This document shows, piece by piece, positions 1-9,848 of a stretch of DNA of 9,848 bases (its first letter is position 1; each line of letters begins with the position of its first letter). The notes beneath the pieces are model-generated. The model did no database searches and was not told the origin of the DNA. It saw nothing but the letters and a program-made list of their open reading frames with translations. Source of the stretch: Candidatus Cloacimonadota bacterium. Lineage in GTDB: Bacteria > Cloacimonadota > Cloacimonadia > JGIOTU-2 > B8-G9. The stretch is from NCBI GenBank assembly GCA_003647765.1, contig QMNM01000031.1, positions 1 through 9,848 of the forward strand, written 5' to 3'. Position numbers and translations under genes: made by a program.

Positions 1-156
1 CTATAAACTATATTAACTTATAAGTGCTTAATTAACACCACATTACTATAATCAAAAATACAAAATCAAATTCTATTTTTGTAAATTTATTGACTCAGCA
101 TCAGTATTTACACGGTCGCACCCTAAGTTGACAAAGTAGAGTAGTATATAATAATA
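1..156. other. Intergenic left flank, no gene seen
   Basis: This stretch lies downstream of the leftmost gene. It is very AT-rich apart from a short richer patch at about 97-131 (GGTCGCACCC at 114-123). I see no coding frame, no tRNA-like fold and no hairpin followed by a T-run that would serve as a clear terminator for the gene ending at 157. Confidence 0.5.
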
Positions 157-2531: not shown

Positions 2532-3107
2532 TTATTTTGTCAGAAATAATATCAATTCCACAGCACTTAATAAATCATCTGCAATATAATCTGGTTTGAC
2601 CTTCCAGTTATGCCGTCTATAAATAAATTCACCTTTACCATAGCCAGTAAGCACCATTATTGTCTTTAATCCACATCTTTTACCAAACTCAATATCTGAT
2701 GGCTTATCTCCAACCATAAAACTGTTCTTAATATCAAAATCAAAATCCTTTAATGCTTTTTTAAATAAACCTGTTTTTGGTTTACGACAATCGCAATCTT
2801 TTCTGAATTCCTCTATCATTCCATCAGGATGATGTGGGCAATAATAAAGAGCATCGTAATGCGCATTTTTTTGTGATAATAACCTGTTCATTCTTTGATG
2901 AACCTTATCTAAAACTTCTTGGGAAAAGAATCCTCTTGCTAAACCTGATTGATTGGATACAATAAATACAAGAAAATTGTTTTTATTTAATTGTCTAATG
3001 GCTTGGGCTACAGAGGGTATAAGTTCAAACAGGTCTTCATGATTGATATATCCTTTATCTACATTGATTGTGCCGTCACGGTCTATAAATACTGCTTTTT
3101 TAATCAT
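2532..3107 (-). CDS. gmhB: D-glycero-D-manno-heptose-1,7-bisphosphate 7-phosphatase (HAD family)
   Basis: The 191-residue product has all hallmarks of GmhB, the HAD phosphatase that removes the 7-phosphate in ADP-heptose synthesis for the LPS inner core. The nucleophile motif is FIDRDGT (D9 nucleophile, D11 acid/base). SNQSGLARG at 51-59 is motif II, CRKPKTG at 107-113 holds the motif III lysine, and VGDKPSDIE at 132-140 is motif IV. The zinc-binding set is visible as CPHH (C90, H92, H93) with CDC (C105, C107). Length is normal. An in-frame ATG further upstream (3162-3164) would add 19 residues lying inside lptD. The ATG at 3105-3107 is preferred because AGGAAA stands seven bases before it and it gives the usual family N-terminus. 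It overlaps the lptD stop by 8 bp, implying translational coupling to LPS export. Histidinol-phosphatase relatives share the fold, but the zinc motif and context favour GmhB. Confidence 0.92.
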   Translation of the reverse strand: MIKKAVFIDRDGTINVDKGYINHEDLFELIPSVAQAIRQLNKNNFLVFIVSNQSGLARGFFSQEVLDKVHQRMNRLLSQKNAHYDALYYCPHHPDGMIEEFRKDCDCRKPKTGLFKKALKDFDFDIKNSFMVGDKPSDIEFGKRCGLKTIMVLTGYGKGEFIYRRHNWKVKPDYIADDLLSAVELILFLTK

Positions 3108-5577
3108 AATACTTTTTCCTATCAGAAAATCTAAACATAATGTCATTTGGTAAAGCTTTAACATTTATTTTGAATCTGTATGACCAAATATCACCTGATT
3201 TTTCCCAAGATAAAGATGCAGACCAACAATGTAAATCCCGATAAATTCTTAAACTTTGTGAAACCAATCTCTTCTCTTTGAAGTTATAATAATTAGAATA
3301 AGAAATTTTCCAATTCATGGTAAGATTAAATTCAATACTATTATGCAGATTTGAGCTATAATAACCAGTTTGCTTATTTTTATTATAACTAAAACTTGAA
3401 GACACATTCCATCTTTTTTTCTCTGGTTTTGTTTCAGCATGGCTATTCTGTATTTCTGCCTTCTGTCTTCTGCCTTCTGATTCCTGGTTCTCATTATTTC
3501 TTGATTTCTTGATTTCTTGAACTCTTGATTTCTTGAACTCTTGATTTCTTGAACTCTTGAAACAAGGAAAATCAACTTTTTGATGATGAAAATAAGTATT
3601 ATAAAATAAATTTCCTGTTAAAGATATTTTGGCAGAGAGTGAATAATTTTTCGGCTCCAATGAATAGAAATCTTGTATTAACCGTAATGAATTAGATAAA
3701 GTAATATTAGTTGATTTTAAACTTAATTTCCCTGGATTTATTCTTAATGAATGCGATATATCAGAAAAGTGTTTTCCCGTTTTCTCAAAGTCATATCCAG
3801 TAGAAGACGAAATTGTAAGCAATTGATTTAATCTTTTCAGCTTTCCTTCTTTTGTTGATAGTTTTGCCTGCAATTTATTGTTTATAGAGATGGACATTCT
3901 TTTAGAACGCTTTGATTTACTGATGCTAATGCCAGAAAAATTATCTATATCCTTGTTAATGTTGGAAAAGTCCGGTGCATAAAAGAAACTAATATTTGGT
4001 GAGATGATATGTCGTAATGCTTTTAACCTACCGACATTAGTAGAGAAAATTCCATATATGGAAAAAGAGAACGAAGAACTTGTATTATAATCATAGCCAC
4101 GATTTATGCTCTTATTATCTTTGTCTAACCATACTTCGTTATATCTAAATGCTTGTGATAAGTTTAGCCATCCTTTGATTTTATCTACATAAGAAAGTGA
4201 TAGATTATGTTTAATACCTTCGCGATGGTTTGATAGTATATTACCCTCTTTGTCATAGCTATTATGATAGAAAAATTGAGAAGCTGTTGGAGATGTTACA
4301 TTGATAGTTGCAGTATGTAATATATTATTTCTGTATGAGAAATAAAGCTTTCCCAACCAAGAGTGCAATATATTATAATTGGGCTCTTGTGTTGCCTTTG
4401 CAACGATTTCATACACAGGTCTTGAAGATAATATAAAAGAGGCGGATGGAAATTTTAGAGATTTATGTCTTGTATCTAAATCCTCTCTGTAATCCATAGT
4501 GAGTGAAAATGAGCTAGCTCGCCAGGACTTTGAATAAGATAGATAAGATGTAAGAGTTTTGTCCATTCGCACTTGCTTATCATCGCTGATTTGACGCACT
4601 GTTTGGTCACTGACAAAATTTAGTCGTATGGATAAATTACTTGTACAGGAGAATCGTTGCCTGTGAAAAGCACTAATCAGCCAATGATAGCGATAATCAT
4701 ACGGACCTAAATTATAGCGGATGAATTTACTTGTTAAATTGCCGTTTAATGTATATCTTGTTTTATACCGAGTGTCTAATATAAATTGCCAGCCAGTATA
4801 TTCCATATAATCAAATGATAAAGTAGCATCGCCATACTCACCAAATGTCTGATAATAAGCAATATTCTTGATGAACTTTCCTTCACGATTATTATAGCCC
4901 GGCTCTGGAATTAGAAAGCCAGATTCTCTTGCTCGTTTTATAGATATAGTCCCAAAAGGCAATGCAAAAATAGGAAAATGATTCACATACAGGACAATAG
5001 GCTTAGCCACGATTTTATCACCTACATATAGACGCAATCTAATACTACGGATTTCATAATGTGGATTCACATTATCACAGGTAGTAAAAGCTGCATTATC
5101 AATATCAAATATCTTTGGTCCAACTTTTCGTATTCTCTGCCCAAAATAAAATCCCTTTTCAAATTTTGTCCTACCACTCAATATCAGGCCTTGCTCGCTC
5201 TCAAAATCATAAAATACACCATTACCATAAATAATCTGCTCAGCATCCTTTAACTCAATATTGCCACTTGCATAAGCAGTACTCTCTTTCATATTGATGA
5301 TAATAGAGTCAGAACTAATATATGAGTTTTTATAGTTAATCTGGGCATTATTTAGCAATCTTATCTGTTCTTTCTTCAAGTTATATACTATACTGTCAGC
5401 TACGTAATTAAGAGAATCAATAACATAAGTGGTGTCAGCCAATCCAGTAGGATTTTCTTTCTCATTCTGAGCATTAGCAATACGAACGAATAAACAAGAA
5501 AACAAGATCACAAGAAGAGATTTAAAATGACATATTATTATAGAAAATTTACAATTATACTTCCTATCAATTTCCAA
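3100..5577 (-). CDS. lptD: LPS-assembly outer-membrane protein LptD (OstA-type domain plus beta-barrel)
   Basis: The 825-residue product matches the plan of LptD, which inserts LPS into the outer leaflet. A hydrophobic signal segment (about 20-33) ends in ANA|Q at residue 36. A periplasmic OstA-like beta-jellyroll follows (about 50-165: NNAQINY, ASGNIELKDAEQIIYGNG), then FTTCDNVNPHYEIRS (164-178), the LptD junction motif, and an FPIFALPFG segment (201-209). A long region of aromatic, alternating strands from about 235 to the end forms the barrel. No ATG lies near the start. TTG at 5575-5577 comes directly after an in-frame TAG, so it is the first possible codon; GGTGG seven bases upstream could serve it. 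Residues about 673-711 are encoded by a short-word repeat tract (3446-3559) giving a Lys/Arg/Glu/Asn/Gln-rich insertion between predicted strands. The 3' end overlaps gmhB by 8 bp. Family assignment is firm; the exact start is less so. Confidence 0.88.
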   Translation of the reverse strand: MEIDRKYNCKFSIIICHFKSLLVILFSCLFVRIANAQNEKENPTGLADTTYVIDSLNYVADSIVYNLKKEQIRLLNNAQINYKNSYISSDSIIINMKESTAYASGNIELKDAEQIIYGNGVFYDFESEQGLILSGRTKFEKGFYFGQRIRKVGPKIFDIDNAAFTTCDNVNPHYEIRSIRLRLYVGDKIVAKPIVLYVNHFPIFALPFGTISIKRARESGFLIPEPGYNNREGKFIKNIAYYQTFGEYGDATLSFDYMEYTGWQFILDTRYKTRYTLNGNLTSKFIRYNLGPYDYRYHWLISAFHRQRFSCTSNLSIRLNFVSDQTVRQISDDKQVRMDKTLTSYLSYSKSWRASSFSLTMDYREDLDTRHKSLKFPSASFILSSRPVYEIVAKATQEPNYNILHSWLGKLYFSYRNNILHTATINVTSPTASQFFYHNSYDKEGNILSNHREGIKHNLSLSYVDKIKGWLNLSQAFRYNEVWLDKDNKSINRGYDYNTSSSFSFSIYGIFSTNVGRLKALRHIISPNISFFYAPDFSNINKDIDNFSGISISKSKRSKRMSISINNKLQAKLSTKEGKLKRLNQLLTISSSTGYDFEKTGKHFSDISHSLRINPGKLSLKSTNITLSNSLRLIQDFYSLEPKNYSLSAKISLTGNLFYNTYFHHQKVDFPCFKSSRNQEFKKSRVQEIKKSRNNENQESEGRRQKAEIQNSHAETKPEKKRWNVSSSFSYNKNKQTGYYSSNLHNSIEFNLTMNWKISYSNYYNFKEKRLVSQSLRIYRDLHCWSASLSWEKSGDIWSYRFKINVKALPNDIMFRFSDRKKYYD
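3115..3120 (-). promoter_or_regulatory. Ribosome binding site of gmhB inside the end of lptD
   Basis: AGGAAA on the minus strand lies seven bases before the ATG at 3107 and is itself part of the last lptD codons. It selects the internal start and supports coupled translation of lptD and gmhB. Confidence 0.65.
3446..3559 (-). repeat. Short-word tandem tract inside the lptD reading frame
   Basis: On the minus strand eight contiguous 8-mers (3559 down to 3496) alternate between CAAGAGTT and CAAGAAAT: the first six alternate, the last two are CAAGAAAT. After a short linker (AATGAGAACCAGGAATC) come three contiguous 7-mers, AGAAGGC, AGAAGAC, AGAAGGC (3478-3458), with decayed copies beyond. Because 8 is not a multiple of 3, the protein repeats only every 24 bases (KSSRNQEF, KKSRVQEI, KKSRNNEN). 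These words contain no stop codon in any of the three minus-strand frames, but the opposite strand has TGA in them. So only this orientation could be tolerated inside a gene. Elsewhere in the window such tracts lie between genes. Confidence 0.9.
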
Positions 5578-5643: not shown

Positions 5644-6351
5644 TTATTTTTCTAATTCTGCTATGAAAAGATGAAATTCATCTTTATATTCTTCATCTGA
5701 TTTGATAGTATCTATTCTTCCATTTTTATTATGATAAAGATGATATGTTGCCTTTTCAAAAGTGAATCTTCTTAATTCCTGTCTGAATTCAGAAAGTCGT
5801 TCTTTTGGATAGATAATAAGAGCGATGCAATGCTTTTTTAATAGAAATTGTGAAGCAGAGATTATATCAATTAAATTGCATTTTATCTCATATTTGGCAA
5901 TTCGTTTTTCCATTGACGGACTTAATCGTCCAGTTCCTATTTTATAATAAGGTGGATTCGTAATAAGTAAATCGTATTTTTGGGGTATCATTTTGTTAGG
6001 GATATTTCTAATGTCAATGTGCCTTAAAAGGATGCGTTGTTTAATTGTATCAGGTAATTGACTGATATTTTTCTTTGAAAGTTCTAATAAAGAATCTTGT
6101 ATTTCTATCGCAGTAATTTTGATATATGGAATCTTTGCGGCTAAAAGCATTGAGATAATACCAGAGCCAATTCCTAATTCAATTACATCTTTTATATGTC
6201 GCCTGACACTGATTTTCTCTAATGCAAAATTAAGCAAAAAAAGAGCATCCTGACTGCTTCTATATCCAAATTTTGACTGCCATAATTTGAGGCCTTTATA
6301 TTGTAAGTCATCACAGGTTAAAAAATTATTGTTCATTAGCCATTGGTCCAT
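5644..6351 (-). CDS. TrmN6/YfiC-like SAM-dependent N6-adenine methyltransferase
   Basis: The product (235 residues from the first ATG) is a class I SAM-dependent methyltransferase of the YfiC/TrmN6 type, which in E. coli methylates adenine 37 of tRNA1(Val). FGYRSSQDALFLL (28-40) is the family's N-terminal signature. ELGIGSGIISMLLA (58-71) is the SAM-binding motif I, E83 in AIEIQ the acidic end of strand 2, HIDIR (111-115) motif III, and TNPPYY (131-136) the catalytic NPPY motif of N6-adenine methylases. The tRNA substrate is inferred from family only. The possible starts, ATG at 6351 and ATG at 6336, both lie in a tandem word repeat (6331-6354), and neither has a recognisable Shine-Dalgarno. 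The conserved region begins about residue 18, so one of them is probably used. It sits 66 bp upstream of lptD and 79 bp after nadA. Confidence 0.85.
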   Translation of the reverse strand: MDQWLMNNNFLTCDDLQYKGLKLWQSKFGYRSSQDALFLLNFALEKISVRRHIKDVIELGIGSGIISMLLAAKIPYIKITAIEIQDSLLELSKKNISQLPDTIKQRILLRHIDIRNIPNKMIPQKYDLLITNPPYYKIGTGRLSPSMEKRIAKYEIKCNLIDIISASQFLLKKHCIALIIYPKERLSEFRQELRRFTFEKATYHLYHNKNGRIDTIKSDEEYKDEFHLFIAELEK

Positions 6352-6354
6352 TGG
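6331..6354 (-). repeat. Three 8-bp units (CCAATGGA type) at the start of the methyltransferase gene
   Basis: Reading the minus strand, CCAATGGA (6354-6347), CCAATGGC (6346-6339) and TAATGAAC (6338-6331) are contiguous. Each unit carries an ATG; the first (6351) and third (6336) are in frame with the methyltransferase and the second is not. The tract encodes its first residues, MDQWLMNN. Confidence 0.8.
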
Positions 6355-6371
6355 CTTGCCATCGGTTGATA

Positions 6372-7378: not shown

Positions 7379-7394
7379 TATAGAACACATATTC

Positions 7395-7471
7395 CACAGA
7401 TGACGCAGATATACACAGATAAAAATTAAAAAATTAATCAGTGAAAATCAGTGTAATCAGTGTCATCGGTG
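7395..7471. repeat. Imperfect inverted repeat of CACAGATGA-type words
   Basis: The left arm (7395-7420) is made of CACAGATGA, CGCAGATAT and ACACAGAT. The right arm (7447-7471), read on the minus strand, gives CACCGATGA, CACTGATTA and CACTGAT, so the arms pair with only a few mismatches and one offset base around an AT-rich loop of 26 bases. The element sits just before nadA, its near end 29 bp from the start codon. If transcribed it could fold as a long hairpin between hicA and nadA. No T-run of a classical terminator directly follows. Confidence 0.75.
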
Positions 7472-7588
7472 TGCTATTAATTGGTATTGAATTGTGTAAC
7501 TTTTACCATTTTAATATTTCATCGTAAGTAATCTTGTCTTTATCCATAATGTAGATAATTTTTATGTATAACGAGGGTTAGATAGCCA

Positions 7589-8861: not shown

Positions 8862-8876
8862 AACTTCGTCTTATTG

Positions 8877-8957
8877 CCACAGAAACACACATGGCACAGA
8901 GGATAATTTATGACAAGGATAAACAAGTTATTTTAAATAATCTTTGTGTCTCTGTGG
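8877..8957. repeat. Imperfect inverted repeat of CCACAGAGACACA-type words upstream of dut
   Basis: CCACAGAAACACAC (8877-8890) and, on the minus strand, CCACAGAGACACAA (8957-8944) match at 12 of 14 positions, separated by 53 AT-rich bases. A further GGCACAGAGG lies at 8894-8903. The word family is also seen at 1285-1298. The element fills most of the gap between the mreB remnant and dut. Confidence 0.75.
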
Positions 8958-8964
8958 TGAATTT

Positions 8965-8985
8965 ACGCATTACGCCCTACGCATT
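8965..8985. repeat. Three tandem 7-mers (ACGCATT type) abutting the mreB stop codon
   Basis: ACGCATT (8965-8971), ACGCCCT (8972-8978) and ACGCATT (8979-8985) are contiguous, and a partial CTTACG follows. The array ends one base from the stop codon (8987-8989) of the mreB-derived frame and directly neighbours the inverted repeat at 8877-8957. Confidence 0.75.
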
Positions 8986-8986
8986 C

Positions 8987-9733
8987 TTACGATTTCATCA
9001 ATACAGGTGCATAATAATTAAGATTATCTAAAATTTTTCCACTGCCCAAGACAACAGAAGTTAAAGGATTGTTGACGATATTAACAGGCAAGTCAGTAGT
9101 ATCTCTTAATTTTTGGTCAAGGCCTCTTGTTTGACATGCTCCGCCAGTAAGAACTATTCCATTATCTGCTATATCAGCAGCTAGCTCTGGTGCAGTGCTT
9201 TCAAGCAGCCATTTAACAGCATCAATAATTGTCATTATCGTTTCTGATAAAGCATCTCGTATCTCTTCTGATTTTACTTCAACTGTTACAGGAAATCCAG
9301 TTACCAAATTTCGTCCTTTTACTTTCATTGATAATTCTTTCTCTAATGGATAAGCAGATCCTATCTGGATTTTTATATGTTCTGCTGTCTGTTCTCCGAT
9401 ATAGAGATTATATTTCTTACGAAGGTAGTTTATTATTGCAGAATCCATCTCATCTCCACCTACACGAATGGAGTTATGCTCTACTATATGAGATAGAGAT
9501 ATAATAGCTACCTCTGTTGTGCCACCTCCAATGTCAATTATCATATTCCCACACGGCTCATTTACCGGCAAATCAGTGCCAATAGCGGCTGCTATCGGTT
9601 CTGATACCAAATACACTTCTCTAGCTCCAGCATGTTTAGCAGAATCTCTAACTGCTCTCTCTTTTGTTTTATAATCAAATCCAATCAGACCAAATCTTGG
9701 TTCAAAACCTTCTGCCCACTCCCAATTATCCAT
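8987..9733 (-). pseudogene. mreB: MreB C-terminal two thirds fused behind a GH1 fragment
   Basis: The open frame of 248 residues is MreB, the bacterial actin that guides rod-shape cell-wall synthesis, from about residue 24 onwards. ERAVRDSAKHAGAREVYLVSEP leads in; IIDIGGGTTEVAIISL (65-80) is the phosphate-2 loop. RVGGDEMDSAI, IGEQTAEHIKIQIGSAYP and VLTGGACQTRGL (194-205, adenosine motif) follow, to a normal C-terminus. Missing are roughly the first 115 residues of MreB, with the phosphate-1 loop (DLGTANT) and subdomain IB, so it cannot form a normal nucleotide-binding actin. In their place residues 1-23 (MDNWEWAEGFEPRFGLIGFDYKT) are the end of a family 1 glycoside hydrolase. The ATG at 9733 is the GH1 internal methionine and has no ribosome site. 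The usual partners mreC/mreD are not adjacent. An intact mreB presumably exists elsewhere. Confidence 0.82.
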
Positions 9734-9848
9734 AGATCCCCAATAGAAAAATCCTACTCCACTCTATACCAGTTCGATGTGCATTTAGATTTAAACTTCC
9801 TAACAATTCAAAGTCTTTATCAAATCGATTATAATGATCACAGCTCTC
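9665..9848 (-). pseudogene. Two joined fragments of a family 1 glycoside hydrolase (beta-glucosidase type)
   Basis: From the window edge the minus strand reads ESCDHYNRFDKDFELL, then GSLNLNAHRTGIEWSRIF (to about 9747). This is the N-terminal barrel region of GH1 enzymes (pattern DHYxRxxEDFxLxxxLGxNAxRxxIEWSRI). That frame then runs to a TAA at 9726-9728. In the next frame, from about 9754, the sequence reads GFFYWGSMDNWEWAEGF followed by EPRFGLIGFDYKTKER, the C-terminal GH1 segment (WSLxDNFEWAEGYxxRFGLxxVDYxTxxR). So about 300 codons, including the NEP and ENG catalytic glutamates, are absent, and the two ends are joined out of frame. The C-terminal piece then runs in frame into MreB near 9645-9668. 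No activity is possible. The gene may continue beyond the window on the right. Confidence 0.8.

Follow-up and report, generated by a model that had tools for sequence, protein, structure and literature searches.

A repeat tract in lptD of a Cloacimonadota genome is probably a tolerated in-frame copy of a dispersed, lineage-specific repeat

In a Cloacimonadota MAG (1.97 Mb in 360 contigs), the lptD gene contains a tract of short repeated words that is read through without a break. This tract is likely (probability about 0.8) a tolerated in-frame copy of a composite repeat that is dispersed, lineage-specific and probably mobile. Octamer arrays may have spread over the genome by a process of copying or insertion. 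Secondary changes in array length would then have occurred mainly in two-unit, 16-bp steps, as the spacer statistics support. Support also exists for a further step, in which the intragenic survivors would be the copies that lie in tolerant loops, linkers and termini and that have a frame-keeping orientation and length. The window is the whole 9,848-nucleotide stretch of DNA that was analysed, and it corresponds to contig C31 of the assembly.

The repeat tract in lptD and its protein loop

The tract spans 114 bp, or 38 codons, and is translated entirely in frame. The initial annotation had described a word tract that enters lptD without breaking it, and this is what is found; that the insert keeps the frame is shown by the open ORF. 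LptD is matched in 35 of the 40 genomes searched, its own genome included, without internal stops. A PDB profile search confirms the identity of the protein, and its alignment does not extend across the tract. The features of the gene are as follows.

3100-5577, minus strand: lptD, LPS-assembly outer-membrane protein, 825 aa with the TTG start as listed (PF19838, E 2.7e-59)
3412-3591, minus strand: whole LptD loop with the tract, residues 663-722 (60 aa), flanked by the predicted strands 642-658 and 720-734
3452-3486, minus strand: five CAGRANN heptamers (CAGGAAT CAGAAGG CAGAAGA CAGAAGG CAGAAAT), encoding the ESEGRRQKAEI stretch
3496-3559, minus strand: octamer array of eight CAAGANNN units, encoding FKSSRNQEFKKSRVQEIKKSR
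5492-5516, plus strand: second CAAGANNN array, three units, antisense to lptD; its complement encodes LLVILFSC in a putative signal peptide

Read directly on the minus strand from 3559 to 3496, the octamers are CAAGAGTT CAAGAAAT CAAGAGTT CAAGAAAT CAAGAGTT CAAGAAAT CAAGAAAT CAAGAAAT, with the spacers GTT AAT GTT AAT GTT AAT AAT AAT in this order. A 9-base junction, AATGAGAAC, lies between the octamers and the heptamers on the same strand. The earlier count of eight 8-mers stands; that of three 7-mers becomes five if CAGGAAT and CAGAAAT are included. The octamers run through all three reading frames, and the proposal that the coding strand is free of stops in every frame holds for them but fails at the AATAATGAG junction. 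The array consists of direct repeats only, with no palindrome, and the lptD copy is the array alone, with no GTAG hairpin or other fixed module.

The lptD repeat is real and exceeds chance. TRF reports the octamer part at 3496-3560 with period 16 (score 116) and the heptamer part at 3454-3479 with period 7 (score 45). The self-match of the tract reaches 43 at lag 16 and 28 at lag 8, whereas 100 dinucleotide shuffles give at most 13 and 11. By the same measure, the heptamers alone are within chance (13, shuffle maximum 14). Heptamers of the CAGRANN type also occur at other loci of the genome.

Between Y662 and W723, the loop is 60 residues long in this protein, compared with 25-31 in seven proteins of the sister family (five genera) and 27-44 in the rest of the class. 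The repeat segment is absent in all 29 LptD relatives compared. The expectation that relatives lack the segment is thus borne out, with a sister-family loop about half as long (25-31 against 60) and no sign of the segment as conserved protein. The nearest relatives compared belong to the sister family. Because relatives in the order are only about 42-50% identical in LptD, the site is not alignable at the DNA level. The tract is located between predicted strands and not in a conserved transmembrane strand, the one position that the initial annotation had set against its own reading.

An AF2 model of LptD built from six sequences is weak (mean pLDDT 44), with the tract below 40 and the strands on either side of it (642-658 and 720-734) at about 60-73. 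The tract is highly charged and probably disordered, and it extends a loop that varies among relatives. Counting strands back from C784 would place this loop on the periplasmic side, a placement of low weight. The E. coli LptD cysteine pair that aligns near C784 is taken here to sit in a periplasmic turn. The loop, with 25-44 residues in relatives, is a plausible site for harmless inserts, and the tract most likely has little effect on LPS insertion. The loop could also have lengthened gradually instead of by one-step insertion.

Two further observations concern the rest of the window. Other intergenic word tracts of similar make-up (CCACGAA..., AAATTTG, ATTAGCCATTGG, CACAGAT/AATCAGTG and TTACGCA) are present at 1249-1310, 2478-2525, 6335-6360, 7390-7472 and 8876-8990. 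At 8987-9848, an MreB ORF lacks its N-terminal third and starts with a match to the C-terminus of glycoside hydrolase family 1 (GH1 profile 409-443; MreB from position 108). This join at the contig end is probably an assembly chimera.

The octamer family in the genome and in other genes

The 21-base pattern CAAGANNTCAAGANNTCAAGA occurs exactly at 57 places in this genome, at none in 17 genomes of the same order, and at three places, in two genomes, among the other 106 genomes of the class. On these counts, the octamer family is lineage-specific among the genomes compared. With at most one mismatch, the pattern is found at 182 places in its own genome and the reversed pattern at none. A variant whose first spacer ends in A is matched exactly at 106 places. 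Counted only in the stretches taken around pattern matches, 62 arrays have about three or more units and 58 have exact cores, which places the genome total at 58 or above (at least 58). The MAG is fragmented and several of its contigs end inside arrays, so the unit numbers may be collapsed. The pattern match on a viral contig (L264) is a three-unit run with no further array.

The majority of CAAGANNN arrays are intergenic or at gene edges. A fraction of about 0.86 of the genome is coding, by approximate ORF calling in a sample of 20 contigs without array hits, which was used only for this fraction and for other word families. Arrays are therefore under-represented in genes. The suggestion that an intergenic-type element is present inside lptD agrees with these results, since the family is mostly intergenic and the in-frame copy is located in a variable loop. 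The literature search returned no description of these repeat words in Cloacimonadota.

Internal in-frame sense copies are present in at least eight Pfam-supported genes: lptD, YjeF/NnrD (NAD(P)H-hydrate repair), LptF/G, PD40-Omp85, radical SAM-DUF2344, DUF4175, CarboxypepD_reg and SprA-like. In YjeF/NnrD the array lies between the two domains, and in radical SAM-DUF2344 it also lies between domains. The inserts are absent in every set of relatives compared: about 22 residues in YjeF (17 relatives), about 27 in PD40-Omp85 (18 relatives), about 22 in LptF/G (14 relatives) and about 11-13 in radical SAM-DUF2344 (15 relatives). Terminal copies are present in PGK, KsgA, a histidine kinase, a DHH protein, FtsH and a kinase/TPR gene pair. 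In the histidine kinase and in KsgA, the element encodes near-identical C-terminal tails (QEENADAVK and QEENADAIK).

These copies also bear on whether a repeat-mediated misjoin placed an intergenic array into lptD. Several contigs (C123, C155, C166 and C171) do end inside arrays. Relatives, however, align with both halves of lptD on either side of the array in a single frame, and the same pattern in YjeF, PD40, LptF/G and radical SAM makes an assembly artefact highly improbable.

Eight of the nine internal copies are read in the CAAGA sense; the only antisense internal copy is in a peptidase C25. All three frames are open on the CAAGA strand in 39 of 58 arrays and on the opposite strand in 5 of 58, so surviving internal copies are expected mostly in the CAAGA sense. 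Selection after arrival is enough to account for the bias, and gene targeting is not needed. Antisense arrays are present in two probable signal peptides (lptD 5492-5516, and L113), where the complement encodes a Leu/Phe/Val-rich peptide. A PurQ-like ORF (L087:13994), RecG (L107) and L120 have apparent antisense arrays at their N-termini; these were discounted, since the likely true starts lie downstream of them. Heptamer tracts of other word families (CGCTCTT, ACGCATT and GCTCTACGCATTAC) are in frame in ORFs of more than 1000 codons (L200:8874-8960, L205:8556-8587 and L212:5503-5562).

Octamer arrays often adjoin heptamer words or fixed modules. A recurring module directly follows about 40% of the arrays (24 of 58, or 31 counting inverted pairs). 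The GATGCTG-type module ends in TTCGTGGCTAA, after which another array often begins, and two related modules are also present. Another array-adjoining module, GTAGAACGACCTTCCAAGGTCGTT, is a GTAG tag with a perfect hairpin. This hairpin is found at 22 places here (at most two mismatches), in six same-order genomes and at a single place in the remainder of the class; because of its presence in the order, it probably predates the octamer family. The array and the GTAG hairpin in YjeF are both translated (VERPSKLVN), and single GTAG hairpins are located inside long ORFs at L138 and L141. The genome has one Y1_Tnp gene (L127, contig C246); the REP-like hairpin beside it, GTAGCCCAGTCGTTTACGACTGGG, belongs to a different family. 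The arrays could have been moved by a REP-type transposase; a link between this Y1_Tnp gene and the octamer arrays is a conjecture.

In inverted pairs, CAAGANNA units are found shortly before TCTTG units, and such pairs could form long intergenic hairpins (L092, L098:2466-2663, L106, L107 and L125). A separate dispersed repeat, TTATTGACTCAGC(A/C)TC(A/G)GT(A/G)TTTACAC..., is present on several contigs (window 88-130, L124 and L093).

Unit structure and the origin of the arrays

In 246 interior units, the core CAAGA differs at 6 of 1230 positions, while the spacers comprise 25 triplets. GTT is the most frequent (36%), followed by AGA, AAA, TAA, AAT, TGA, GGA and GAA, and C is nearly absent. The unit search was seeded from the core and misses strongly decayed arrays, but runs were allowed to bridge two non-core units, so the contrast between core and spacer is not merely ascertainment.

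Within arrays, adjacent spacers are identical 48 times, compared with 67.9 in shuffles (1 of 2000 as low), and spacers two apart are identical 69 times, compared with 53.4 (6 of 2000 as high). With lag-1 identity below and lag-2 identity above the shuffles, the effective unit is 16 bp, or two octamers. Slippage by single units should leave neighbours most alike. Adjacent units are instead less alike than shuffled ones, and single-unit slippage is therefore not the main history.

Another possible origin of the lptD array is local growth by replication slippage, starting from a chance CAAGA-rich sequence and involving no mobile element. The array is locally repetitive, its 16-bp periodicity indicates some local duplication, and loop length differs among LptD relatives. 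This origin is nonetheless unlikely, because one core is present at about 60 loci here and none in the 17 same-order genomes, the core is near-invariant while spacers vary and neighbours are less alike than shuffled, and identical modules adjoin arrays at many loci. The lptD array also shares 48 exactly identical bases with the array that opens contig C155 (L110). This identity suggests copying, and local duplication reduces its weight. No target-site duplication was established for the octamer arrays, which counts against an insertion.

A direct sign of array length change is seen in L126:10252-10312 and L124:30-160, where common flanks surround CAGAANN heptamer arrays of 61 and 131 bp. The initial annotation had raised the possibility that lptD is a contingency switch, in which a change in octamer number shifts the frame and turns LptD on or off. 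In its favour, neither the 8-bp unit nor the apparent 16-bp step is a multiple of three, and the difference between these paralogous arrays shows that such arrays do change length. If the lptD array changed by 16 bp, the reading frame would shift and the last strands would be lost, which makes a switch possible in principle. Against it, arrays are also present in many unrelated housekeeping genes and are mostly non-coding or at gene edges, spacer variation interrupts the units, relatives lack the repeat at the lptD site, and lptD is essential in most bacteria studied. Single-unit slippage is also not the main history. The lptD copy calls for no special role, since the repeat is also found in many other genes and outside coding sequence, and phase variation is very improbable.

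The arrays could alternatively be binding sites, with CAAGA selected every 8 bp for a nucleoid protein or regulator. We know of no binding protein for CAAGA arrays. The constant core and free spacer fit such a role, as do the inverted array pairs able to form a hairpin (L092, L098, L106, L107 and L125), and the paired octanucleotide arrays of Geobacter metallireducens, for which such a role was proposed, are a precedent (PMC2700814). Given the copies in protein interiors and C-terminal tails, it is unlikely that every site has a regulatory role. This reading seems doubtful overall, but it is compatible with mobility and the two are not exclusive.

A stronger form of the preferred reading, in which the tract is a tolerated copy of a dispersed repeat, is more speculative and rather unlikely. 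Under it, a dedicated mechanism, such as a REP-type HUH transposase or a template-copying polymerase, would write a fixed 5-base core with variable 3-base spacers into many sites, genes included. The arrays would then belong to an undescribed class of mobile or templated repeat, and the same charged peptide would be added to unrelated proteins by array writing.

Comparison with known repeat systems

Rickettsia provides the best-known case of non-coding repeats that spread in frame into conserved proteins. Here, a candidate phylum shows such spread with a unit not divisible by three. Genes for LPS transport, metabolism and RNA modification are affected at once, and the core/spacer structure goes beyond simple slippage. 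The copies form a natural set of protein insertions for loop tolerance and a lead on word-like repeat spread in uncultured bacteria.

Rickettsia palindromic elements are short and dispersed, and are found between genes and in frame in unrelated conserved genes, where they add a protein segment (PMC10969869). The octamer repeat follows the same mode: it is dispersed at many unrelated loci, intergenic and in frame in conserved genes, and is absent from orthologues. Unlike the Rickettsia elements, which are palindromic, about 150 bp long and encode a conserved peptide, the lptD copy is a non-palindromic octamer array with variable spacers.

One REP superfamily is defined by a GTAG tag and a palindrome; RAYT transposases are credited with its mobility, and REPs are also known inside genes (PMC3733652). 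The GTAG hairpin family here (GTAGAACGACCTTNNAAGGTCGTT) is similar in that it adjoins several arrays and has copies inside ORFs. The octamer array itself is not a REP. The combination of GTAG and an imperfect palindrome of 20-40 bp is absent from lptD, which has the array only, and is present in the module that adjoins other arrays, including that of YjeF.

Tandem repeats in Borg ORFs also give rise to disordered stretches of protein, and the proteins concerned are often membrane-bound or extracellular (PMC9879509). The Borg repeats are perfect, have units divisible by three and are nearly unique to each locus, whereas the units here are imperfect, 8 bp long and share one core everywhere.

In Geobacter metallireducens, families of about 50 copies of tandem 7- or 8-mers have degenerate positions and are located between and within genes, some as inverted pairs, according to the passages of PMC2700814 on these repeats. 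The same passages give other words, three to five units in each copy and a proposed role as regulator sites or RNAs, and do not describe consequences for proteins. The tandem hepta- and octanucleotide families of Geobacter metallireducens are the nearest formal match to the arrays described here.
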